Positions 40,177 through 52,336 of a stretch of DNA of 64,000 nucleotides are shown here, in pieces (position 1 is the stretch's first letter; each line of letters starts with the position of its first letter). The DNA comes from Mariniflexile litorale (GTDB taxonomy: Bacteria > Bacteroidota > Bacteroidia > Flavobacteriales > Flavobacteriaceae), in the NCBI RefSeq assembly GCF_031128465.2, contig NZ_CP155618.1, positions 2,241,501-2,305,500 of the forward strand, read 5' to 3'. The translations under genes were made by a program, and so were the position numbers. The notes beneath the pieces are model-generated. The model had not been told where the DNA came from. It made no database searches and saw nothing but the letters and a program-made list of their open reading frames with translations.

Positions 40177-42681
40177 ATGAAGACAAACACTCATAACAAC
40201 TACAAGCTAACAATACTTTTAATATTTATAATTATTTCTTTTTCCTCTCATGCAATTGAAATATGGGTAAGTGCTAAAGGCAGTGATTATAATTCTGGGA
40301 CTAAAGAAAAACCTTTAGCAACCTTAAACATGGCTTTAAGAAAAGCTAGAGATATGCGTCGTTTAAACGATCCTTTGGTGAAAGATGGTATTCGTATTAT
40401 TTTAATGGAAGGTGTTTTTTATTTGGATGAACCTGTTTTTATAAGACCAGAAGATTCTGGAACTGCTGAAAGTCCGACCATAATTGAAGCTCAAAATAAC
40501 ACAAAACCAGTTTTAAATGGGGGCTTGCAAGTTAAGAAATGGAAAAAAGCTCATGCTGTTAATGGTTTAAAAGTAGGGAATGTCTGGGTTTCTGACGCTC
40601 CAAGAAAAGCAGGGAGTATTATTAGTTTTAGACAATTATGGGTCAACGGAAAAAAAGCAGTAAGAGCAAAAAGTACTTCAGGTGATAAAATGGATAGAAT
40701 TTTATCATGGGATAAAATCTCCCAAACCTGTTGGATTCCTTTTAAAGATAAGTCGGTTGAATTTCAACCTGGCATGGAAATGTTAATTCAGCAATGGTGG
40801 GCGATAGCTAATTTAAGAATCAAAGATGTAGAAGTAAAGGGCGACAGTGCAAAAGTGTATTTTGAACAACCTGAAAGTCGTGTACAAAGTGAGCACCCGT
40901 GGCCTGCTCCTTGGATTTCTAAAAAAACAGGGAATTCACCTTTCTTTTTGAATAATGCGATGTCTTTACTAGATGAACCCGGAGAATGGTTTTTAGATAA
41001 AGAAAATTCTAAAATTTATTATTATCCAAGAATAGGAGAAGATTTGGAGTCGGCTAAAGTGATGATTCCAGTTTTGGAAAATTTGCTAGAAATGAAAGGA
41101 ACTATTGATATGCCTGTGCATCATGTGTATATTAAAGGTGTTTCTTTTGAATACAGTAACTGGACGAGACCATCGCAACAAGGACATGTGCCTCTGCAAG
41201 CAGGTATGTATATGTTGGATGCATATAAACTAAAAACACCTGGAACACCTGATAAAGCTGGTTTAGAGAACCAAGCTTGGATTGGAAGACCAAGAGCAGC
41301 GGTAGAGATTAATTATGCTAATAATATTCAGTTTCAAGAATGCTCATTTCAGTATTTATCATCAACAGGTTTAGATTTACATAAAGGTACCAATAACAAC
41401 TTGGTGCAAGGGAATTTATTTAAGGATATTGGTGGAAGTGCTATTAACTTAGGAGTGTTTTCAGATGAAGCATTTGAAACCCATTTACCATATAACCCCA
41501 AAGATGAACGTGAAGTATGTTCCAACGAAACTATTGTAGATAATTTAATAACCAATGTTTCTAACGAAGATTGGGGATGTGTTGGTATAAGTGCGGGTTT
41601 TGTTAAAAATATTACCATTGCACATAACGAGATTTCCGATGTGTCGTACACGGGTATCGGCTTGGGTTGGGGGTGGACTAAAACGCAAAATGCTATGAAA
41701 GGAAACAAGGTCGTGGCTAATAAAATTCATCATTACGGAAAGCGTCTATATGATACGGCTGGTATTTACACACTGTCAGCACAACCTGAAAGTCGTATTG
41801 AAGAAAATTACATTTATGATATTTATCAAAGTCCGTATCCTCACGATCCATACCATTGGTTTTATTTGTATACCGATGAAGGTTCTTCATACTTCAATGT
41901 AAAAAACAACTGGGTTCCTGCAGAAAAGTTTCTTCAAAATGCCAACGGACCCGACAATGTTTGGCAAAACAATAATGCTTTTGTAGGTGAAACAATAAAA
42001 CAAAAAGCAGGCATCAGACAGCCATATAAACATTTGCAAAAAGAAGTTGTTGTAGATACCGAATGGGAGTTACAAGAAATTCCACATTTTGCAGCAATAG
42101 AGTTGGTTGGTAAAGGTTTTGATGAGTCTAAAATTAAATCAATAGCCAAAAAAAATGGTGTTATAGATGCACAATTATACCAATGGAAAAATCATATAGT
42201 TTTATACGCACAACTAAACCATATAGAGCATTTAAAAAGTGAATTGGCTTTAGTATATCCAAAAGCAGAAATAAAAACATATAATACACCCGTTTATAAT
42301 TTTAGCAAATTTGAAAGATGTGACAATTCAGAATTGGCTACAGAATGGAACCATATTGTATTAACCGCAAATTTGGTTGAAGACACAAAGCTTCAACAAG
42401 AATATTTAGATTATCATAAAACGCAGTTTGAGGAATGGCCTGAGGTAGCTCAGGGTTTTTGTAATGCCGATTTTCAACAATTACAAGTGTTTAAAAATGG
42501 ACGCCAGTTAATGTTGATTATAAGTATTCCTAAAGGCAAAAGTTTAGATGAACTAAACCCGAAAACAACCCAAGATAATCCGCGTGTAAACGATTGGAAT
42601 ACACTCATGAAAAAATACCAAACAGGCATTAAAGGAACAAAACGAAATGAAACCTGGGTATTTTTAAATAAACTGAATTAG
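40177..42681 (+). CDS. Secreted beta-helix glycosidase (GH141-like) fused to rhamnose-mutarotase-like domain
   Basis: The 834-residue protein has a signal peptide ending near SFSSHA (residue 27). Residues about 28-620 form a right-handed beta-helix enzyme: WVSAKGSDYNSGTKEKPLATL, FRQLWVNGKKAVRAK and the repeats NNLVQGNLFKDIGGSAINLG and VSYTGIGLGWGWTKT. This resembles GH141 (fucosidase/xylanase), with GH120 as the alternative. Residues about 724-832 resemble L-rhamnose mutarotase (RhaM): LVEDTKLQQEYLDYHK, EEWPEV, FQQLQVFKNGRQLMLII and WNTLMKKYQ, including the histidine of the YxxxH...WPE motif. The stretch about 636-715 may be a second, weaker copy of that fold. Such a fusion would release a deoxysugar and convert its anomer. 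It heads the operon. Confidence 0.8.
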   Translation: MKTNTHNNYKLTILLIFIIISFSSHAIEIWVSAKGSDYNSGTKEKPLATLNMALRKARDMRRLNDPLVKDGIRIILMEGVFYLDEPVFIRPEDSGTAESPTIIEAQNNTKPVLNGGLQVKKWKKAHAVNGLKVGNVWVSDAPRKAGSIISFRQLWVNGKKAVRAKSTSGDKMDRILSWDKISQTCWIPFKDKSVEFQPGMEMLIQQWWAIANLRIKDVEVKGDSAKVYFEQPESRVQSEHPWPAPWISKKTGNSPFFLNNAMSLLDEPGEWFLDKENSKIYYYPRIGEDLESAKVMIPVLENLLEMKGTIDMPVHHVYIKGVSFEYSNWTRPSQQGHVPLQAGMYMLDAYKLKTPGTPDKAGLENQAWIGRPRAAVEINYANNIQFQECSFQYLSSTGLDLHKGTNNNLVQGNLFKDIGGSAINLGVFSDEAFETHLPYNPKDEREVCSNETIVDNLITNVSNEDWGCVGISAGFVKNITIAHNEISDVSYTGIGLGWGWTKTQNAMKGNKVVANKIHHYGKRLYDTAGIYTLSAQPESRIEENYIYDIYQSPYPHDPYHWFYLYTDEGSSYFNVKNNWVPAEKFLQNANGPDNVWQNNNAFVGETIKQKAGIRQPYKHLQKEVVVDTEWELQEIPHFAAIELVGKGFDESKIKSIAKKNGVIDAQLYQWKNHIVLYAQLNHIEHLKSELALVYPKAEIKTYNTPVYNFSKFERCDNSELATEWNHIVLTANLVEDTKLQQEYLDYHKTQFEEWPEVAQGFCNADFQQLQVFKNGRQLMLIISIPKGKSLDELNPKTTQDNPRVNDWNTLMKKYQTGIKGTKRNETWVFLNKLN

Positions 42682-42686
42682 CCTAA

Positions 42687-44951
42687 ATGAAACAAACCAA
42701 CCATCAATTTTTCGACTTTCTAGACTTTAATACCGATTTATCTTTAGAAGAAGGAGTTTCTAGACTTTGGAAAGCTTGTAAACCGATTGATATTACTAAA
42801 AATGGACTAGGTGTGGTATTAACAGTACCATTTCAATGTCAATTATTGTCAAATGAAATTACATCAGATATATCTATTTCAAGAAAAAATTATAACGTCT
42901 TTTTACGAGCCTTTGGTGAAAAAATATTAAGAGTTAGTGTTGGTTTTGATAAAGAAATTTTAGAATCATCGCCCATGTTAGAGATGGCGGATGATATTAA
43001 AGAAATGACTTTGAATATTGAAAAATTCTCAAATGAATGGAAAGTTAAAGATGTAAACGGAACTTTACGTGCTGTTTTCGATTTATCAACACCAGAAATA
43101 GACCATTGGAGCGACTTACTGCCAGAACCAGAAGAGTCTATGAAAGCCACGTTTTATCCAGATGGAAAAAAGGCTATAACAGTTAGTGCTTACGACCAGT
43201 TTTTTCCAGGTAGAATGGACGCTATGTGTTTGTCGTTTGTAGAAACTCACGGGGAACCAAGTAAAGCATCAATCTCATTTCATGCTAAACCAGATGAAAA
43301 ATTTGTAGGTACTGGTGAGCGTTTTAGTAAAATGGATTTGTCTGGAAACACGTTTCAGTTAAAAAATCAAGACGGACAAGGTGTAAATAATAAGAGAACT
43401 TATAAAAATATTCCGTTTTATCTGTCTAGCGAAATGTATGGGATGTTTTTGCACACCTCTACATATTGTAAATTTTCACTGGCTGATTTTTCAACAAGGT
43501 CGGTACAATTACTAGTTGAAGAGCCTGTTTTAGACATGTTTTTAATAGGAGAAGATTCACCAGATAAAATTATTTATCAATATAAAAAAATAACAGGATT
43601 TCCAACGATACCACCACTTTGGACTTATGGTGTATGGATGAGTAGAATGACTTATTTTTCTGAAGAAGAAGTTAATGAGATTTGTGATAGATTAAGAGTG
43701 GAAGATTATCCCTGTGATGTGATTCATTTAGATACGGGTTGGTTTAAAACCGATTGGCTTTGTGAATGGAAATTTAATTCTGAACGATTTCCAGATCCTA
43801 CACGATTTGTTTCCAACTTAAAGAAAAATGGATATCGAGTAAGCTTATGGCAAATGCCGTATATTTCAGAAAAAGCAGAGCAATACGAAGAAGCTAAAGC
43901 AAATAATTATATAGGAGCTTTAAATGGCGAGCTTATACAAGGAGGTTCGAATTTTAGTAGTTTAGATTATGCGGGAACTATCGATTTTACATATCCAAAA
44001 GCGGTAGAATGGTATAAAGATTTATTACGAGAACTTTTAGATATGGGAGTTGCTTGTATAAAAACAGATTTCGGAGAGGAAATTCATTTAGATGCTAATT
44101 ATCACAAGATGACTCCAGAGTCACTTAATAATTTATATGCTTTGTTATACCAAAAAGCAGCTTTTGAAGTAACCAAAGAAGTTACAGGAGAAGGTATTGT
44201 TTGGGCAAGAGCAGGATGGAGTGGTTGTCAGCGTTATCCAATTCATTGGGGTGGTGATGCCGCAGCATCTTGGGATGGTATGGCAGGTTCTTTAAAAGGT
44301 GGTTTACATTTAGGCTTGTCGGGTTTTGGTTTTTGGAGTCATGATGTGCCAGGGTTTCATGGTGTTCCTAATTTTATGAATTCGGTTATTCCAGACGATT
44401 TATATGTACGTTGGACCCAATTTGGGGTGTTTACTTCGCATATTCGTTACCATGGTACTTCTAAGAGGGAACCTTATTACTACCCAAATATTGCTACTAC
44501 TGTTAGGAAATGGTGGAAACTACGTTATGCATTATTGCCTTATATTTTACAAGAAAGCGAAAAAACAACATCAACAGGATTTCCCGTTTTAAGAGCTTTA
44601 TTAATGCATCATCCAGAAGATAATATGTGTTGGCATATTGATGATCAGTATTATTTTGGAGATGATTTTTTAGTGGCGCCCATAATGAATTCAGAAAATA
44701 AAAGAGATGTCTATTTACCTGCGGGTAATTGGGTTGATTTTTTTACTGGTAAAAAATTCGCGGGTGAAAAATGGCTTAAGAATGTTGAATTCCCTATGGA
44801 AGATATGCCTGTTTGGGTAAAACAAAATGCTATAATTCCAGTATATCCTGAAGCGGTAAACTGTACCGATGATATGGATTTAAAAAAGGCTATACCTATT
44901 AAAATAGATACAAATTTTTCAGGAATTTGGAAGCAATTAGATTTTATATAA
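42687..44951 (+). CDS. GH31 alpha-xylosidase/alpha-glycosidase, cytoplasmic
   Basis: The 754-residue enzyme has no signal peptide. The GH31 N-terminal beta domain includes KFVGTGERFSKMDLSG; the barrel has LWTYGVWMSRM, VIHLDTGWF, the nucleophile motif CIKTDFGEE (about D461) and the acid/base motif IHWGGDAAASW (about D524). The KTDFGE and HWGGD wording matches YicI-type alpha-xylosidases rather than the PA14 type at 14830-17691. It starts 5 bases after the beta-helix stop, so translation is probably coupled. It would act on an alpha-linked xylose or related sugar after import. Another alpha-glycoside specificity cannot be excluded. Confidence 0.9.
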   Translation: MKQTNHQFFDFLDFNTDLSLEEGVSRLWKACKPIDITKNGLGVVLTVPFQCQLLSNEITSDISISRKNYNVFLRAFGEKILRVSVGFDKEILESSPMLEMADDIKEMTLNIEKFSNEWKVKDVNGTLRAVFDLSTPEIDHWSDLLPEPEESMKATFYPDGKKAITVSAYDQFFPGRMDAMCLSFVETHGEPSKASISFHAKPDEKFVGTGERFSKMDLSGNTFQLKNQDGQGVNNKRTYKNIPFYLSSEMYGMFLHTSTYCKFSLADFSTRSVQLLVEEPVLDMFLIGEDSPDKIIYQYKKITGFPTIPPLWTYGVWMSRMTYFSEEEVNEICDRLRVEDYPCDVIHLDTGWFKTDWLCEWKFNSERFPDPTRFVSNLKKNGYRVSLWQMPYISEKAEQYEEAKANNYIGALNGELIQGGSNFSSLDYAGTIDFTYPKAVEWYKDLLRELLDMGVACIKTDFGEEIHLDANYHKMTPESLNNLYALLYQKAAFEVTKEVTGEGIVWARAGWSGCQRYPIHWGGDAAASWDGMAGSLKGGLHLGLSGFGFWSHDVPGFHGVPNFMNSVIPDDLYVRWTQFGVFTSHIRYHGTSKREPYYYPNIATTVRKWWKLRYALLPYILQESEKTTSTGFPVLRALLMHHPEDNMCWHIDDQYYFGDDFLVAPIMNSENKRDVYLPAGNWVDFFTGKKFAGEKWLKNVEFPMEDMPVWVKQNAIIPVYPEAVNCTDDMDLKKAIPIKIDTNFSGIWKQLDFI

Positions 44952-44995
44952 AAGAAAATTAAAAACAAAATATAACAATTTAAAAAATAGAACAG

Positions 44996-45748
44996 ATGAG
45001 TGCAGTTATAACTAATGAGCAATTAAATCAATTTCAAGAAGATGGTTTTTGCATTGTGAAAAATGTGATACCACAAGAACTTATTGAACGATTAAGAGGT
45101 GAATGCCAAAGATTCATAAAGGAGAAAGATGATGAAATGGACCGAAAAGGAGTCGAGGTGGATGAGATTAATCATAAAGGAAAAAGGTATTTCATAGCGC
45201 TACGTTATAAAGATAGTAAAACCATGCAAGACCTTATTTTTGGTAAAGAAATGGAGCAAATTACACGTAAAATTTTAGGAGACGATGTGTTTTTGTTTTT
45301 AGAGCAGTATGTGGTAAAAGCAGCCGATAAAGGAATGACGTTCTCATGGCATCAAGATTCTGGGTACCTAGATTTTGAGCACAAACCATATTTATCAATT
45401 TGGTGTCCTTTAGATGATGTAACTGAAGAAAACGGTACCGTATATTTATTACCTTACAAAGAAGCAGGAACCGATCATAGAATAGACCACGTTTTGCAAG
45501 AAGGTACTAACGATAAAATTGGATACTTTGGAGATAATCCTGGAGTTCCAGCAGTATTAAATGCAGGAGATGTTGCGTTATTTTCAAGCACTTGCTTTCA
45601 CCGAAGTGGTTCTAATAAAACAAACAAATCAAGACGCGTATTGTTAATTCAATATTCCTCTGAACCTATCTTAAAAAGTACAGGTGAACCACTTTACTGG
45701 GCGGAACCATTTGTAAAAGCAGGAGAAAATGTTAATGCATTTGTATAA
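44996..45748 (+). CDS. Phytanoyl-CoA dioxygenase (PhyH)-family Fe(II)/2-oxoglutarate oxygenase
   Basis: The 250-residue cytoplasmic protein has the PhyH opening FQEDGFCIVKNVIPQELIERL. The metal triad is visible: His119 and Asp121 in SWHQDSG, and His202 in CFHRSGSN, with Arg213 or Arg214 in SRRVLL as the 2-oxoglutarate contact. LSIWCPLDDVTEENGTVYLLPYK is the conserved central strand pair. The family hydroxylates many small molecules, not only phytanoyl-CoA. Its place between a GH31 and a sugar symporter suggests a sugar or sugar-linked substrate such as a methylated or modified monosaccharide, but this is inference. A terminator follows directly. Confidence 0.88.
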   Translation: MSAVITNEQLNQFQEDGFCIVKNVIPQELIERLRGECQRFIKEKDDEMDRKGVEVDEINHKGKRYFIALRYKDSKTMQDLIFGKEMEQITRKILGDDVFLFLEQYVVKAADKGMTFSWHQDSGYLDFEHKPYLSIWCPLDDVTEENGTVYLLPYKEAGTDHRIDHVLQEGTNDKIGYFGDNPGVPAVLNAGDVALFSSTCFHRSGSNKTNKSRRVLLIQYSSEPILKSTGEPLYWAEPFVKAGENVNAFV

Positions 45749-45790
45749 AATGTAAAAGTAACGCAGTTATATACTGCGTTTTTACATTTT
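45747..45790 (+). terminator. Intrinsic terminator after PhyH-family gene
   Basis: ACGCAGT (45761-45767) and ACTGCGT (45773-45779) form a 7-bp stem with a 5-base loop. Outside it, AAAATGTAAAA (45747-45757) and TTTTACATTTT (45780-45790) extend the pairing. The hairpin overlaps the stop codon by two bases and is followed by AT-rich sequence. It should end or reduce transcription of the first three genes before the symporter, which would then need read-through or its own promoter. Confidence 0.82.
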
Positions 45791-45846
45791 AAATAAACCA
45801 ACTAACCAAAATTATTAATTAGTTAAAAAGATATTATATTTAAAAA

Positions 45847-47436
45847 ATGAATATATACGACCAATTAGATTTTCTTGATTTTGCTGTAGTAGGCATGTAC
45901 CTTTTAGCATTAATCGGTATTGGAGCATGGATTGGATTCAGACAAAAAAGACCAGCGGACGAAAACTACTTTCTTGCAGGGAATTCATTAAACTGGACGA
46001 GTATAGGTTTTAACATGTGGGGCACCAATGTAGGGCCTTCTATGTTAATAGCATCGGCAAGTATTGGATATACTACAGGTATTGTAGCTGGTAATTTTTC
46101 TTGGTATGCGTTTATATTCATTTTTTTATTGGCAGTTGTTTTTGCACCAAGATATCTGGGTGCTAGAGTACAAACCTTACCAGAGTTTATGGGTAAGCGT
46201 TTTGGTAATTCAACGCAAAACATATTGGCTTGGTACACAATTGTAACTGTTTTATTAAGTTGGCTATCATTAACATTGTTTGCGGGTGGTATTTTAATTC
46301 AGCAGATACTTAATTTACCCATGTGGTTATCGGTAGTTATATTATTGCTAATCGCAGGTTTCTTTACCATGGCTGGCGGACTTAAAACCATAGCTTTCAC
46401 TAATGTAATACAAATGGTATTATTAATAATTGTATCATTTTCATTAATGTGGGTCGGTTTAGATAAAGTTGGAGGTGTTAGTGCTTTAATTGAAAAAACA
46501 CCTTCTAATTATTGGAATTTATTTTTACCTAGTGATGATGCTAATTATCCCTGGGTAGCGATACTGTTGGGTTATCCTATTATGGGTGTTTGGTTTTGGT
46601 GTACCGATCAATCTATGGTACAATCGGTATTAGGAGCTAAAAGCATTAAACAAGGTCAGTTAGGGGCTAACTTTACAGGTTGGCTTAAAATTATTGATGT
46701 GCCGTTGTTTATACTGCCTGGAATTATGTGCTTTATACTCTTCCCTAATTTAAGTAATCCAGATGAAGCTTATATGACTATGGTAACCGAGTTATTTCCA
46801 ACTGGTATGAAAGGGTTGGTTATGGCGGTTCTTATTGCAGCATTAGTAAGTACTATTGATTCTGCTTTAAACGCATTAAGCACCGTTTTTACGATGGATA
46901 TTTTTGTAAAAAAATTCCAACCAGATGCGAGTCAAAAGAAGATTGTTAAAGTAGGGCATTTGGTTACGGTATCAGGAGCCATCATTTCCATATTTATTAC
47001 TATGGCAATAGATAGTATTAAAGGACTTAATTTATTTGATGTATTTCAATCAGTATTAGGTTTTATAGCGCCACCCATGTCGGTTGTATTTTTATTTGGT
47101 GTTTTATGGAAAAAAACGACTACGAAAGCGGCTAATAGTATTTTAATTTTTGGTACAATTCTTAGTTTAACGGTTGGTATTTTGTATCTGTGGGTATTTC
47201 CTAACGACCCAAGTGCGGGAGTTAAAATCTGGCCGCATTTTTTAATTTTATCTTTTTACATTTTCGTGTTTTTATCTATTATGATAGTGATTATTTCGTA
47301 TTTAGATAAGAAAAGTAATTCGTATCAAAGCACGCTAAATTACACCAAAGCGAAACTCTCACCAAAAGTAAAGTTACTTTGGGGAACATTGATTTTAACA
47401 ATGATTGCATTGTATTTATTTTTTAATGGACATTGA
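45847..47436 (+). CDS. Sodium:solute symporter (SSS family), sugar transporter
   Basis: The 529-residue inner-membrane protein has about 13-14 hydrophobic segments, the first at about 11-30 (FAVVGMYLLALIGIGAWIGF). SSS family landmarks include RPADENYFLAGNSLNW near the N-terminus, GANFTGWLKIIDVPLFILPG, and the ALVSTIDSALNALSTVFTMD segment that holds the sodium site. Members of this branch in glycan loci import monosaccharides with sodium. It probably takes up the sugar released by region-4 enzymes from the periplasm. The substrate cannot be read. It is followed 47 bases on by an isomerase gene. Confidence 0.93.
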   Translation: MNIYDQLDFLDFAVVGMYLLALIGIGAWIGFRQKRPADENYFLAGNSLNWTSIGFNMWGTNVGPSMLIASASIGYTTGIVAGNFSWYAFIFIFLLAVVFAPRYLGARVQTLPEFMGKRFGNSTQNILAWYTIVTVLLSWLSLTLFAGGILIQQILNLPMWLSVVILLLIAGFFTMAGGLKTIAFTNVIQMVLLIIVSFSLMWVGLDKVGGVSALIEKTPSNYWNLFLPSDDANYPWVAILLGYPIMGVWFWCTDQSMVQSVLGAKSIKQGQLGANFTGWLKIIDVPLFILPGIMCFILFPNLSNPDEAYMTMVTELFPTGMKGLVMAVLIAALVSTIDSALNALSTVFTMDIFVKKFQPDASQKKIVKVGHLVTVSGAIISIFITMAIDSIKGLNLFDVFQSVLGFIAPPMSVVFLFGVLWKKTTTKAANSILIFGTILSLTVGILYLWVFPNDPSAGVKIWPHFLILSFYIFVFLSIMIVIISYLDKKSNSYQSTLNYTKAKLSPKVKLLWGTLILTMIALYLFFNGH

Positions 47437-47483
47437 TAATATCTAAGAGTTTTTGTAATCAGAATAAAAAATAATAATTCATT

Positions 47484-48362
47484 ATGATAAAAAACACAAA
47501 CGATGGTAGTAATAACTTACCATCTTTACGTATTGATTTAAACTACGGAACCTGTGAAGATTTACCTTTGTTTTCTACAGGACCAAAAGGGAGCGATAGA
47601 GAAAAGCATGAAGCAATTGCAAAAGCTGGTTTTGAAGGTGTTCAAGACGGTGATCCCGAACTTTGTAAAGAATTCAATTTACAATTAACAGCCCATGCAA
47701 GAGTTAATGACGTTGGCGATTTAAAAGATTTACTGCCTTTATGGAAATCCTTAAATTATAATTGTGCAACGGTGCATTTAGGTTGGGGCATGGAATCGGA
47801 TGTTGAAATGGATGTTTTGGTTAATTATATCAAAGAATGTTCAGAAATGTTTGATATTCCTATTTACATTGAGACACATCGAGCTACCGTTACCCAAGAT
47901 TTGTTTAGAACGGTGGAGTTAACAAAACGATTCTCCGAAGTACGTTTCAATGCCGATTTTTCACATTGGTACACAGGGCAAGAAATGGTGTATGGCGGTA
48001 TAGAAAACAAATGGGATTTCATTCAGCCGATATTTGATCGTGTTCGATTTATACATGGCCGTATCGGGAATCCAGGTTGTATTCAGGTAGATATAACTGA
48101 TGATAAAAACCTAAGTTATGTGGAGCATTTTAAAGAAATGTGGAAACGCTCTTTTTTAGGGTTTTTAAAATCAGCAAAACCAGGAGATTATATTTGTTTC
48201 ACTGTTGAACTTTTAAAAGCAGAGATTTTTTATGCTAGAACAGTTCCAACTACAACTGCTGGTGAACTAGAAGAAGGCGATCGCTGGCAGCAAGCATTGT
48301 TATATAAACAAATGGTTGAGCGGTGTTGGGAGTCTGCTAACAAAGAATTTTATTCCAAATAG
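47484..48362 (+). CDS. Sugar phosphate isomerase/epimerase-like TIM-barrel protein
   Basis: The 292-residue cytoplasmic protein fits the xylose-isomerase-like (AP endonuclease 2) superfamily. Likely metal ligands are visible: Glu in YIETHRAT, Asp and His in NADFSHW, His in RFIHGRIGNPG and Glu in CFTVELLK. KHEAIAKAGFEGVQDGD is the N-terminal barrel strand and turn. The family includes isomerases, epimerases and dehydratases of monosaccharides or inositol; the sequence alone does not say which. It follows the symporter and is a good candidate for the first intracellular step on the imported sugar. Confidence 0.86.
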   Translation: MIKNTNDGSNNLPSLRIDLNYGTCEDLPLFSTGPKGSDREKHEAIAKAGFEGVQDGDPELCKEFNLQLTAHARVNDVGDLKDLLPLWKSLNYNCATVHLGWGMESDVEMDVLVNYIKECSEMFDIPIYIETHRATVTQDLFRTVELTKRFSEVRFNADFSHWYTGQEMVYGGIENKWDFIQPIFDRVRFIHGRIGNPGCIQVDITDDKNLSYVEHFKEMWKRSFLGFLKSAKPGDYICFTVELLKAEIFYARTVPTTTAGELEEGDRWQQALLYKQMVERCWESANKEFYSK

Positions 48363-48376
48363 ATTTCCAAAATTAT

Positions 48377-48420
48377 AAAGCAAAAATATAATTTAGCTTT
48401 CTTTTGTTTTTTATTTTCTT
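48377..48420 (+). terminator. Possible weak terminator after isomerase gene
   Basis: AAAGC (48377-48381) and GCTTT (48396-48400) could pair, followed by a long T-rich tract (from 48401 on). The stem is only 5 bp, so termination would be weak. The stretch 48363-48504 otherwise contains no gene. Confidence 0.35.
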
Positions 48421-48504
48421 CTTTTATTTGTTTTTAACAGGTAGGTACAGGATGGAAATGAAAGAGAGAATAGTCATTTTTACTGAAAATCATGAACTTT
48501 TATT

Positions 48505-48763
48505 ATGTATAACAAATTATTAATGTCTAAATTACTTATAGCCATACTTCTGTTTTCTTCTTTTAACGTATTAGTACAAATTGAAAAAAACGAAGCTCCC
48601 TAAATTTGGTACTGGAGATTTTGAAGTTTGGTTGAGTAATAAAATGCAAGTAAGGTATACTGAGCGGGAAGCATTCTTTCTTCATTTCAGAAAAAAAGAC
48701 AGTCATTATGTATTGGTGAAATTAAGAAAAAAAGATAGTTTTGACTTAAGCAAAGGAAATTGA
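48505..48763 (+). pseudogene. Decayed N-terminus of a secreted GH78 alpha-L-rhamnosidase
   Basis: A start at 48505 encodes MYNKLLMSKLLIAILLFSSF, a signal-peptide-like start, then IEKNEAP and a stop at 48601-48603. Directly after it, in a shifted frame, the sequence encodes GDFEVWLSNKMQVRYTEREA, which matches residues about 20-40 of the intact GH78 at 50207 (GDFEIWLSNKMQVRRTEREA). Alignment with the intact gene shows TGG replaced by TAA and a 2-base deletion about 8 bases later, so the reading frame is broken twice. The text after it (HFRKKDSHYVLVKLRKK) is GH78-like but not identical, so the remnant comes from a related paralogue, not a recent copy. The rest of the gene is missing. Confidence 0.78.
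48627..48654 (+). repeat. 28-bp direct repeat, left copy
   Basis: The 28 bases from TTTGGTTGAG to GCAAGTAAG are identical to 50277-50304 in the GH78 gene, 1650 bases downstream. The copies flank the MFS transporter gene. This block lies inside the decayed rhamnosidase fragment. Confidence 0.9.
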
Positions 48764-48804
48764 AGGGTAGTCAAAATGCATTAAAAAATATAAATAAAAT
48801 AAAA

Positions 48805-50172
48805 ATGGAACAAAAAGAAGGAAGTTTAAAAAGTACAATCGCTGTATCGCTTACTAATTATCTTGATGCTGGCGCGATTGTGGCCGGTGCAAGCGGATTG
48901 TCTCTTTGGCAAAATTACCTCGGACTTAACGAAGGGCATCTTGGCTGGCTTAACGCCATCAGTGCTAATGCTTTTGGTGCAGCTATTGGTGCGATTGTTG
49001 GCGGTTTTCTTGCTGACAAATACGGACGAAAAACAATTTACACCTATAATATGCTTGTGTATATGTTGGGGATTGCAGTAATTATGTTCTCGGTCAATTT
49101 CTCAATGCTATTGACTGGTTTTCTGATCACAGGTATCTCGGTAGGAGCGGGTGTGCCTGCTTCGTGGACTTATATTTCCGAAAATTCTGAAGTGGGTAAT
49201 CGCGGACGCAATATGGGTATTTCTCAGTTTGCCTGGGGAGTTGGTCCGACGATCATTTTATTATTAGGAATGTTGCTTGCTCCTGGTAAAGCGGATGCTG
49301 CAGCAGGTGCTTTATTCGGCTATGTAGAAAAAATTGCGACATTCTTTTTAGGAAACGATGTAAGTATTGAATCAGTCAATGTATTCAGCAGCCGTATTAT
49401 TTTCGGCTCCTTGTTTATTGTAGCGTTTGTAGCATGGCTTTTGCAACGAAAACTCAACGAATCAAAAGACTGGGAAGATGCTCAGCTAGCTCAAGGGAAT
49501 GAGAAACAACCGAGTGTTTTTGCTTCGTTCGGATTGCTTTTCAAAAACAAGGTAAATATTCGCACCATGATTTTTCTAGCTGGTATTTACGTTTCTTGGA
49601 ACATGGTTGCTTCCGTGATGGGTTTCTTTCAACAACATATTTATGAAAATGCAGGTGGTCTTTCTAACGGAGAAGCGAATATGGTATCGGCAGTACAATG
49701 GATCGTGATTATTGCGGTAACTTATTTCGGCTTTGCGATGATAGTCGATAAAGTAAATCAGCGTCTGTTGTATTTTGTTGGCACATCGATTGGTATAGCG
49801 GCATGGTGTATTCTCATTTTTATTGGAATAAAAAATCATACTGCCTTATGGACTTTTACTATTCTTTGGGGTATTCACGCAGGTATCAGTGTACAAGCAT
49901 TTTATGCGCTTTGGGCTTCGGAACTCTTTCCAGCTAAATATCGAGCAGGAGCGCAAGGGGTTATGTTCTTTGTAGTAAGAGCTGTAGCGGCCATATGGGG
50001 ATTGGGATTTGTTCATATTTACGGAGAAAACGGAGAAGGATTTAACACTGCGGCCTACATTATGGTAGGATTGCTCATGATCGCGTTAATAATAGGAACT
50101 ATTTGGACGCCTAAAACTCGCGGCAAAACATTGCAACAAATAACAGAAGAAAGATACGGAGACAATATTTAA
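48805..50172 (+). CDS. MFS sugar transporter
   Basis: The 455-residue inner-membrane transporter starts at the ATG at 48805 (MEQKEGSLKS); an upstream in-frame TTG at 48760 overlaps the decayed fragment and is unlikely. Twelve membrane segments are expected. The loop 2-3 signature GFLADKYGRKTIYTYN is that of sugar-porter MFS proteins. Base composition is unlike the neighbours: three 60-base stretches (48901, 49681, 49861) hold 29, 26 and 27 G+C, against 13 at 46381 (symporter) and 21 at 51061 (GH78). With the 28-bp repeat on both sides this suggests acquisition. It precedes a cytoplasmic rhamnosidase, so a rhamnose-containing oligosaccharide is a candidate substrate. Confidence 0.88.
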   Translation: MEQKEGSLKSTIAVSLTNYLDAGAIVAGASGLSLWQNYLGLNEGHLGWLNAISANAFGAAIGAIVGGFLADKYGRKTIYTYNMLVYMLGIAVIMFSVNFSMLLTGFLITGISVGAGVPASWTYISENSEVGNRGRNMGISQFAWGVGPTIILLLGMLLAPGKADAAAGALFGYVEKIATFFLGNDVSIESVNVFSSRIIFGSLFIVAFVAWLLQRKLNESKDWEDAQLAQGNEKQPSVFASFGLLFKNKVNIRTMIFLAGIYVSWNMVASVMGFFQQHIYENAGGLSNGEANMVSAVQWIVIIAVTYFGFAMIVDKVNQRLLYFVGTSIGIAAWCILIFIGIKNHTALWTFTILWGIHAGISVQAFYALWASELFPAKYRAGAQGVMFFVVRAVAAIWGLGFVHIYGENGEGFNTAAYIMVGLLMIALIIGTIWTPKTRGKTLQQITEERYGDNI

Positions 50173-50206
50173 CACGGATTTTATATTATCATAAAAAATT
50201 AAACAA

Positions 50207-52336
50207 ATGGGTAAACCTTTTTTACCGAACACCTCACATGCTTCAACTTGGATTTGGTATCCAGGCGATTTCGAAATTTGGTTGAGTAATAAAATGCAAG
50301 TAAGACGTACAGAACGCGAAGCGGTTTTTCCTCCGCTTTGGCAATATTATAGTCCTTATCCTTTGATTACCTTTCAAACAGAGGTTGATATTCCAGAAGA
50401 AGATGAAGTAAAAATTTACTCAGAAGGTACGTTTCAATTACTTGTAGATGATGTTCAAATCTATGGCGTACCCGAATCAATTACAATTCCATCTGGAAAG
50501 CACAAAATTTCCTTTAAAGTTTATAATCAAGAGGTATTGCCTGCTATTTATGTTGATGGCAAGTATGTGAAATCTAATGAAACCTGGATTGTAACCAATG
50601 AAGATAAACTTTGGATTGATGAGACAGGAAAAGCACAACAATCTGGAACGCCTTGGGTACCTGTTGGTTCTTGGAATTTTAATTCACCTGAGAATAAACC
50701 TTCCGAATTTCGTCTTACTACCGAACCTTGGAATGCTAAAAAAACAGAAAAAGTAGGCACTGGCGAGTTAGTAGATTTTGGTAAAGAAACATTTGGTTAC
50801 ATTAAAATTCACGGTTTAAAAGGAAAAGGCAAATTGTCACTATATTATGGAGAATCTCGTGAAGAAGCGCTAGATTCAGCCAAATGTGAAACATTGGACT
50901 ATCTCCATTTCGATGGCAATCAGCCAGAAACTTATACACATGATAAATCCAAAGCATTCCGCTATGTTCAAGTACAAGCTGACGCAACAGTGGAATATGA
51001 TTCCATATCGATGCTATATGAATATTTGCCATTAGAGTATCGTGGTGCATTTAAATCTTCAGATGAAGTATTGAATAAAATTTGGGATGTATCGGCTTAT
51101 ACCATGCACTTAACAACACGAGAGTTCTTTATTGACGGTATAAAACGTGATCGCTGGGTTTGGTCTGGTGATGCCTATCAAAGCTATTTAATGAATTATT
51201 ATTTATTCTTTGATTCGTCATCTGTGGAACGAACATTGCTCGCCCTACGAGGGAAAGATCCCGTTACAGCGCATGTGAATATTATTATGGATTACTCGTT
51301 TTATTGGTTTGTAGGCATATACGATTATTATTTATATACAGGCGATACAGCTTTTATTAAAACGTTTTATCCACGAATGAAATCACTCATGGAATTTTGT
51401 TTAGGCAGAAGAAATGAAAATGGATTCTTAGAACCATTAGATGGTGATTGGGTTTTTATAGATTGGGCGGATGGCTTACCAAAAAAAGGAGAAGTTAGTT
51501 TTGAGCAAATGTTATTAGCAAGAAGTTTAGAAGCCATGGCTGTTAGTGCAGAAATTGCTGGTGAAAATGAAGATCAAAAACAATATCAAGAATTAGCAGA
51601 TGATTTAAAAGAAAAATTGTTTGATGTGTTTTGGGATGAAGAAGAAGATGTCATGAAGCACCAGCGAATAGATGGTGAAATGCAAGATATTGTTACCAAA
51701 TATGCCAATATGTTCGGCATCTTTTTTAATTATTTTAATGAAGAACAAAAAGAAAGTGTAAAGAACAAGGTATTACTTAATGATGATATTTTACAAATTA
51801 CCACACCATATATGCGTTTTTATGAATTGGAAGCACTTTGTGCTATGGGAGAACAAAAATTTGTTTTAGATGAAATTCGTGATTATTGGGGAGGCATGTT
51901 AGAACTCGGCGCAACGTCTTTCTGGGAAAAATACGATCCAAAGCAAAGTGGTGGTGAACATTTAGAAATGTATGGTCGCCCTTATGGGAAAAGTTTGTGT
52001 CACGCTTGGGGCGCAAGTCCAATTTACTTATTTGGTAAATATTATTTAGGGGTAGAACCTACTGCTCCAGGATATTCTGAATATGTTGTAAAACCCAATT
52101 TAGGTGGTTTAAAATGGATAGAAGGCAAAGTGCCAACTCCAAATGGCTCGGTAGATGTTTATTGCAGTACTGATGAAATTAAAGTAAAAGCTTCAGAAGG
52201 CGAGGGTACTTTAATCATTCATAGTATAAGCAAACCTGAAATCAATTTAGTAGACATAAAATCATTGGGTTCTAATAAATATGAAATTAAAATAAAACCT
52301 AACACGCAATATTCAATTCAATACAAAGCACTATAA
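50207..52336 (+). CDS. GH78 alpha-L-rhamnosidase, cytoplasmic
   Basis: The 709-residue enzyme has no signal peptide (MGKPFLPNTSHAS). The N-terminal beta domains (about 1-290) include WIWYPGDFEIWLSNKM and a middle carbohydrate-binding part, ending VQADATVEYDSI. The (alpha/alpha)6 barrel shows EFFIDGIKRDRWVWSGDA, which carries the conserved Asp/Arg motif of the family, and GATSFWEKYDP followed by SLCHAWGASPIYL, the glutamate and histidine region. By family it releases L-rhamnose from the non-reducing end. It shares its N-terminus with the dead fragment upstream. The gene directly before it is an MFS transporter, so uptake of rhamnosides followed by internal cleavage is plausible. Confidence 0.92.
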   Translation: MGKPFLPNTSHASTWIWYPGDFEIWLSNKMQVRRTEREAVFPPLWQYYSPYPLITFQTEVDIPEEDEVKIYSEGTFQLLVDDVQIYGVPESITIPSGKHKISFKVYNQEVLPAIYVDGKYVKSNETWIVTNEDKLWIDETGKAQQSGTPWVPVGSWNFNSPENKPSEFRLTTEPWNAKKTEKVGTGELVDFGKETFGYIKIHGLKGKGKLSLYYGESREEALDSAKCETLDYLHFDGNQPETYTHDKSKAFRYVQVQADATVEYDSISMLYEYLPLEYRGAFKSSDEVLNKIWDVSAYTMHLTTREFFIDGIKRDRWVWSGDAYQSYLMNYYLFFDSSSVERTLLALRGKDPVTAHVNIIMDYSFYWFVGIYDYYLYTGDTAFIKTFYPRMKSLMEFCLGRRNENGFLEPLDGDWVFIDWADGLPKKGEVSFEQMLLARSLEAMAVSAEIAGENEDQKQYQELADDLKEKLFDVFWDEEEDVMKHQRIDGEMQDIVTKYANMFGIFFNYFNEEQKESVKNKVLLNDDILQITTPYMRFYELEALCAMGEQKFVLDEIRDYWGGMLELGATSFWEKYDPKQSGGEHLEMYGRPYGKSLCHAWGASPIYLFGKYYLGVEPTAPGYSEYVVKPNLGGLKWIEGKVPTPNGSVDVYCSTDEIKVKASEGEGTLIIHSISKPEINLVDIKSLGSNKYEIKIKPNTQYSIQYKAL
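50277..50304 (+). repeat. 28-bp direct repeat, right copy
   Basis: This block is identical to 48627-48654 and lies within the N-terminal coding part of the GH78 gene. Outside it the two copies remain similar but diverge (for example GTTTGG/ATTTGG before, GTATAC/CGTAC after), which is expected of homologous genes rather than a transposon target site. Confidence 0.9.

Follow-up and report, generated by a model that had tools for sequence, protein, structure and literature searches.

An apparently foreign MFS permease gene lies between a dead signal-peptide fragment and a leaderless GH78 rhamnosidase gene in a predicted rhamnogalacturonan II-type locus

We analyzed a 64,000-nucleotide window of the Mariniflexile litorale genome (G000:C1:2241501-2305500; the source genome is one contig of 4.52 Mb), and compared it with relatives that include Flavobacteriaceae. 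Three features of this window are our subject: a GH78 alpha-L-rhamnosidase gene without a signal peptide, an MFS permease gene directly before it, and, on the far side of the permease gene, a remnant of the 5' end of a secreted GH78 gene (Table 1). An earlier note on this DNA had reported that the remnant, with its signal peptide, stop codon and 2-base deletion, matches the start of the GH78 gene, that the dead and living starts share a perfect 28-bp repeat, and that the MFS gene is richer in G+C than its neighbors; all three were found as described.

The GH78 gene and the remnant of a second GH78 start

The living gene encodes a 709-residue protein whose N-terminal domain matches PF21209 at 264.2 bits (cut-off 27) and whose six-hairpin domain matches PF17389 at 97.6 bits (cut-off 24.5). 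Its closest solved structure is 3cih, which we take to be BT1001 (E=4.5e-273, residues 5-696). The four acidic catalytic-site positions of Rhamnosidase B (presumably D567, E572, D579 and E841) align with D310, D315, D322 and E574, one of the four being a conservative E to D change. No hydrophobic leader was detected, the maximum 9-residue Kyte-Doolittle mean in the first 35 residues being 0.20. The missing signal peptide is a difference of location and not of family, and the enzyme would be expected to act in the cytoplasm.

According to PMC7939467, BT1001, encoded in an RG-II (rhamnogalacturonan II) locus of Bacteroides thetaiotaomicron, cleaves the Rha-Api disaccharide in the last step on one RG-II oligosaccharide, and the RG-II enzymes were made without signal-peptide regions, that is, BT1001 was treated as leader-bearing. 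The window enzyme shares the family and domain make-up of BT1001, and differs from the protein treated there in being leaderless and in sitting behind an MFS gene. By analogy, it may likewise cleave Rha-Api.

The remnant opens with an ATG at 48507 and a leader (MYNKLLMSKLLIAILLFSSFNVLVQIEKNEAP), carries a TAA at the position of a TGG in homologs, and has lost two bases (TACTGGAGAT versus TATCCAGGCGAT). Its first 20 residues have a mean score of 95.7 against GH78 subclade I (80 sequences) and 71.7 against subclade II (11 sequences), whereas for the 29 residues that follow the values are 19.1 and 46.4, respectively. Judged by these scores, the remnant is a chimera, with its first half from subclade I and its second from subclade II. 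Because the halves fit different subclades, two GH78 genes of different subclades must have recombined or swapped sequence here.

The 28-bp block (TTTGGTTGAGTAATAAAATGCAAGTAAG) has the same letters at both copies, is embedded in a 96-nt stretch of 74% identity (48614-48709 versus 50264-50359), and is far beyond chance as a perfect repeat. Much of this identity, however, reflects a conserved coding motif, E-[IV]-WLSNKMQVRRTER. Across 92 homologous loci (four records doubled), the 28-mer occurred exactly in none, with one mismatch in 4, with two in 15 and with three in 33. The repeat alone is therefore no proof of recent recombination, and the case for such an event is weakened.

Descent of the remnant could not be read from its leader alone, a course we rejected since several leaders score alike; an upstream element was therefore used instead. 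Of 94 loci, 49 (47 of 88 distinct) carry this operator-like direct repeat, CAGG-N5-7-CAGG, in the 250 bp ahead of the GH78 start, many of the 49 being close relatives (Flavobacterium); it lies at -58 to -73 in 48 of them and at -23 in L071. The background was 186 matches in 3.27 million bases on both strands, 54 of these just before GH78. This pattern is a relaxed one, adopted once sequences had been inspected; its strict form, ACAGG-N-[AG]CAGGA, precedes the GH78 start in only 4 of the 94 loci. We infer a regulatory role for the element.

In the window, the core of the element starts 69 bp before the ATG of the remnant, not ahead of the living GH78, and none of the MFS-linked loci has it ahead of the living gene. 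It lies 66 bp before the matching ATG in G089, which apparently retains ~40 bp from the start of this remnant (by eye and alignment), and in the gap preceding the MFS gene in G272; in G001, G002, G186 and L062, none was found in the 300 bp ahead of the MFS gene. Because the element precedes the remnant at the usual spacing and not the living GH78, we regard the remnant as most likely the original start of the gene, and the living GH78 as its resident body; this agrees with the earlier description of the fragment as a leftover of a secreted GH78. A search of the host genome allowing up to three mismatches gave four sites in total, the three further copies (G000:C1:2163394, 152830 and 4349722) having one to three mismatches. 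One further copy is near a distant GH78 paralog at 150834-152093.

Table 1. Positions within the window of the features discussed, those of main concern first.
Feature	Position	Strand	Basis
GH78 alpha-L-rhamnosidase (BT1001 type), no signal peptide, predicted cytoplasmic	50207..52336	+	PF21209, PF17389, PF17390
MFS permease gene, RhaY-like (L-rhamnose permease relatives), apparently foreign to Bacteroidota as sampled	48805..50172	+	PF07690/PF00083
Remnant, 5' end of secreted GH78 gene (start and stop codons, signal peptide, loss of 2 bases, ~50 N-terminal-domain codons)	48507..48763	+	
28-bp block copy 1, within remnant	48627..48654	+	perfect repeat
28-bp block copy 2, within living GH78	50277..50304	+	perfect repeat
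Operator-like direct repeat AACAGGTAGGTACAGGATG; the element found ahead of many secreted GH78 genes	48436..48454	+	
GH31 enzyme, no signal peptide, predicted cytoplasmic module	42687..44951	+	PDB 5f7c match, leader scan
PhyH-family dioxygenase, predicted cytoplasmic	44996..45748	+	PF05721
SSS-family sodium:solute symporter, inner-membrane transporter of locus	45847..47436	+	PF00474
Putative TIM-barrel sugar isomerase/epimerase-like protein	47484..48362	+	weak PF01261 match

The MFS gene and its coupling to leader loss

The MFS gene has a G+C content of 41.2% (34.4% at third codon positions), compared to 34-36% (22-28%) in its coding neighbors. Of the seven MFS-linked copies, those of G186 and G272 show no such excess and those of G001 and L062 a modest one; it stands out clearly in the window, G002 and G089. 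The gene was found in 3 of 60 relatives including the window genome (E≤1e-60), in 5 of 397 family genomes searched genome-wide (E≤1e-50), and in 1 of 395 phylum genomes, namely the window genome itself (E≤1e-20). The search for a donor in other phyla covered plasmid records; the best matches there were in Listeria (53%) and Ligilactobacillus salivarius (52-53%), followed by Sphingomonadales (33-35%). In the rhamnose operon of Listeria, lmo2850 would be the MFS gene. As far as these comparisons reach, the gene is foreign to Bacteroidota as sampled and is kin to permeases of rhamnose operons, with L-rhamnose permeases of Bacillota among its relatives.

The homolog on L. salivarius plasmid pMP118 is followed by rhaB, rhaM, an L-rhamnose isomerase gene and rhaD, that on a second L. 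salivarius plasmid by the isomerase gene and rhaD, and that of Sphingobium herbicidovorans (33%) lies with rhaI, a gene for a RhaEW-type bifunctional aldolase/dehydrogenase, a kinase gene and lldD. An L-rhamnose operon context was seen for the homologs in L118, L139 and L140 and not for those in L137 and L138; the window gene lies in a polysaccharide utilization locus (PUL) instead. No annotated rha genes lie beside the homologs on Croceibacterium and Lactobacillus intestinalis plasmids, which speaks against every homolog being a rhamnose permease. Profile searches gave 52.9 bits for the Sugar Porter model TIGR00879 (cut-off 237.8), 82.7 bits for PF00083 (cut-off 22.3), and, as best NCBIfam model, 69.3 bits for TIGR00895 (cut-off 418.55).

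PMC3870299 describes RhaY as the MFS L-rhamnose transporter of certain Bacillales and Actinomycetales, and the window protein may well be of this kind. Its family and its similarity to the L. salivarius rha-operon protein and the Listeria protein liken it to RhaY-type permeases; it differs in that its gene is in a PUL beside a rhamnosidase gene, with the host rha cluster elsewhere. PMC3425472 gives the Listeria rhamnose operon as lmo2846-lmo2851 and calls its transporter an ABC-transporter. The host rha cluster (L152, G000:C1:2897000-2913000) contains RhaEW-type, RhaI-type and FGGY kinase genes; the rhamnose isomerase family PF06134 had no match in the host, the RhaI type being present instead. 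Adjoining the cluster is a permease-like gene (470 residues, nine transmembrane segments) that matched no Pfam or NCBIfam family at E≤0.001.

To relate the MFS gene to the loss of the leader, GH78 loci were compared: the best 80 of 565 relatives found by GH78 similarity, so that distant ones are unsampled, plus more from genome searches. Ninety-two were scored by script, corresponding to 88 distinct loci because four genes were represented by two records each (L029/L114, L043/L117, L068/L116 and L075/L093); the upstream flank was ~8 kb for most and 0.4 kb in the shortest case. A hydrophobic leader (9-residue mean hydropathy ≥2.16) was present in 86 of the 92, none of which had an MFS gene in the available flank (tblastn). 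The remaining six were leaderless (hydropathy ≤0.86): L062 (Tamlana nanhaiensis), L091 (G001), L092 (G002), L109 (G089), L110 (G186) and L111 (G272). By tblastn, the MFS gene was directly upstream of GH78 in these six and in no others, and the window is a seventh case. Among the 397 family genomes drawn, 14 had the GH78 (E≤1e-100); the five with the MFS gene were leaderless and the other nine had a leader. MFS presence is thus completely coupled with leader absence in the loci examined, and the intact secreted GH78 without an MFS gene, which the earlier note had suggested looking for in relatives, does occur.

Secreted GH78 loci (Flavobacterium, Aestuariibaculum, Salegentibacter) resemble the window in having an orthologous GH78 with an SSS gene, in most cases GH43-like, GH2b and GH106 neighbors, and in many the CAGG-N-CAGG element; they differ in their intact signal peptide and in having no MFS gene in the available flank. 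The SSS gene accompanies most secreted GH78s; in L014 and other loci free of the MFS gene, it immediately precedes the GH78. The MFS-GH78 arrangement was not mentioned in the titles and abstract openings listed from the open-licence literature searched, and 'rhamnos' does not occur in PMC8990778.

The seven MFS proteins group together in a tree apart from L. salivarius (96/96), with the sets {window, G002, G089} and {L062, G186, G272} and G001 not resolved. Their dN/dS values range from 0.03 to 0.11; many of the pairs approach synonymous saturation, and one saturated pair was excluded. Between the window and G002 or G089, synonymous divergence (pS) of the MFS gene is 0.40 or 0.38, the lowest of the locus, the other genes being at 0.50-0.72.

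The window GH78 shares 84-85% identity with the secreted Aestuariibaculum-type genes (L014 and L112) and 79-87% with the other MFS-linked copies, so that it looks like a resident body minus its leader. Quick trees of GH2a, GH43-like and GH2b placed L014/L112 among the MFS-linked loci, a quick GH78 tree needed two changes of state, and the careful GH78 tree did not resolve the window, G001, G002 and G089. The spacing between GH78 and GH2a is 12 bp in L014, L112, L062, G186 and G272, and 11 bp in the window. In the SSS tree, conversely, L014/L112 group with Pelobium, which favors a reversion. Because the SSS gene has this affinity whereas the GH78, GH2a, GH43-like, GH2b and GH141 genes (the last weakly) side with the MFS-linked loci, recombination has probably replaced the segment immediately ahead of GH78 in L014/L112.

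Interpretation and alternative explanations

Together, these results lead us to consider it likely, with some reserve, that a foreign MFS gene splits the promoter and signal-peptide end from the body of a resident secreted BT1001-type GH78 within an RG-II-type PUL. A horizontally acquired RhaY-like gene would have landed between the front end and the body, the old 5' end persisting in the window genome as the dead remnant and the body restarting, with its signal peptide lost, at a new ATG just 3' of the MFS gene. The old promoter would now probably serve MFS and GH78. Secreted enzymes would cut RG-II side chains, the permease may carry either L-rhamnose or a rhamnosyl disaccharide (for instance Rha-Api, which is of a size that a permease can handle) over the inner membrane, and the GH78 may split rhamnosides inside the cell, feeding RhaI/RhaEW. 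With no export signal on the enzyme, one step in the breakdown of plant pectin has probably shifted from the periplasm to the cell interior, a relocation that the earlier note had also proposed and that is the natural reading of the lost leader.

Several observations weigh against this account. The second half of the remnant comes from the other GH78 subclade, which a plain insertion leaves unexplained; the remnant is recognizable solely in the window and, partly, in G089; and its leader is not diagnostic, the Aestuariibaculum leader ranking third of 86 by alignment score. L014, L112 (the closest secreted relatives) and L063 have no CAGG-N-CAGG element, so that its tie to the immediate ancestor of the window gene is indirect. 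The GH78-GH2a spacing is 234 bp in G001, and there is no GH2a there in G002 and G089. The careful GH78 tree makes L014/L112 sister to {L062, G186, G272} at 96/95, and a single clade of all seven MFS-linked GH78s is marginally rejected (approximately unbiased test, p=0.043); two acquisitions, or one and one reversion, are therefore needed. The GH141 tree, which puts L014/L112 with the MFS-linked loci (support 77), does not favor the reversion. Finally, because a different permease-like gene lies beside the host rha cluster, the MFS protein is not the sole candidate for rhamnose import.

A quite possible alternative, although we lean against it, is that the MFS protein imports only free L-rhamnose released by secreted rhamnosidases such as GH106, that leader loss was a by-product of the insertion, and that the GH78 acts on rhamnosides imported by the SSS transporter. 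The L-rhamnose catabolic operons around the MFS relatives in L. salivarius and Sphingobium, the hydrophobic, lipoprotein-like leader of the GH106 of the locus, and the SSS gene beside most secreted GH78s all fit this view. A second rhamnose permease would, however, be redundant given the permease-like gene of the host rha cluster, and the coupling of MFS gene and leader loss has persisted in seven species.

Two independent MFS acquisitions at the same spot in two flavobacterial groups seem rather unlikely. They would account for the position of the secreted, MFS-free L014/L112 as sister to one MFS-linked set and for the marginal rejection of a single clade, but the MFS tree unites all seven genes, and the SSS affinity with Pelobium points to recombinational replacement just before the GH78 in L014/L112.

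The earlier note had proposed that the MFS gene and a cytoplasmic GH78 arrived jointly by recombination between related rhamnosidase genes, displacing a resident secreted gene. The chimeric remnant shows that GH78 genes did recombine here, and joint arrival would also agree with the foreign MFS gene and its low synonymous divergence between the window and G002/G089. Entry of the two genes together is nevertheless unlikely: the body is equally near the secreted Aestuariibaculum genes, GH78, GH2a, GH43-like and GH2b all put these secreted loci among the MFS-linked ones, most loci of both types have the short GH78-GH2a spacing in common, and none of the 92 loci has a leaderless GH78 without an MFS gene that could have been the donor.

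The GH78 body is under purifying selection in at least seven species. Early decay of a GH78 no longer useful, as the dead secreted front end might suggest, is highly improbable in view of dN/dS values of 0.04-0.12 among the seven MFS-linked copies (seven species, at least four genera; many pairs near synonymous saturation), the open frames (712-715 residues in six species, with the L062 match spanning residues 8-709) and the acidic catalytic-site positions retained in the window protein.

The splitting of a resident GH78 by a foreign MFS gene invites a broader reading, which we put forward tentatively and are inclined to doubt: a single insertion would both have beheaded a secreted glycosidase, leaving it in the cytoplasm, and have placed the inner-membrane permease for its disaccharide behind the promoter that the two genes now share. 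Digestion of an RG-II side-chain unit would thereby have passed in one step from the periplasm to the cytoplasm (a "selfish" mode), a change that at least seven flavobacterial species have retained and that leader-restoring recombination perhaps once reversed (the Aestuariibaculum type). Enzymes of Bacteroidota PULs are mostly regarded as surface- or periplasm-bound. Here, close relatives have the same enzyme in a secreted and a leaderless form, and the change of form goes along with a transporter gene placed at the start of the enzyme gene. This natural experiment makes it testable how a glycosidase changes compartment, whether a permease must accompany it, and whether an intracellular last step cuts the loss of sugar to neighbors.

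Setting of the locus

The locus encodes a BT_1002 homolog (PDB 5mqp, E=1.4e-202) and a GH106 protein homologous to the GH106-type structure 5mqm. The 40 kb past the window contain a TonB-dependent receptor (TonB plug) and SusD, an apiosidase-like protein (PF13204), a BT_1020-like protein (PF24067), DUF3826, GH127, GH95, GH28, and two more proteins with a GH78 catalytic domain. BT1001-, BT1002- and GH106-type enzymes, apiosidase and BT_1020 types and a SusC/SusD pair, the contents looked for in an RG-II PUL, are thus all present, and the window genes and the next 40 kb probably form one RG-II-type PUL.

Hydrophobic leaders were found in the GH141, GH2a, GH43-like, GH2b and GH106 proteins of the window. 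GH31, the TIM-barrel protein and GH78 had none, and PhyH was borderline (1.66). Positions 42687-52336 are accordingly predicted to encode a contiguous cytoplasm and inner-membrane module (GH31, PhyH, SSS, TIM, MFS, GH78). The TIM-barrel protein matched PF01261 at E=0.0028, under the Pfam cut-off, and nothing in the PDB better than E=0.64. In G002 (L092), a deletion (judged by eye) has seemingly removed most of this gene, so that its start now abuts the region ahead of the MFS gene. L014 and L112 (G338) have no GH31, PhyH, TIM or MFS gene.

The GH141 protein (window 40177-42681) has a C-terminal L-rhamnose mutarotase domain (RhaM, PF05336) behind its hydrophobic leader; homologs in many Flavobacterium loci match as far as its end, and the match stops around residue 620-640 in those of Salegentibacter, Anditalea and Belliella. 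In these last three genera, the block of GH31, PhyH, SSS and TIM-barrel genes (window 42687-48362, with a leaderless GH31) recurs in another order. Speculatively, this block could serve in O-demethylation of RG-II sugars such as 2-O-Me-Xyl-Fuc.

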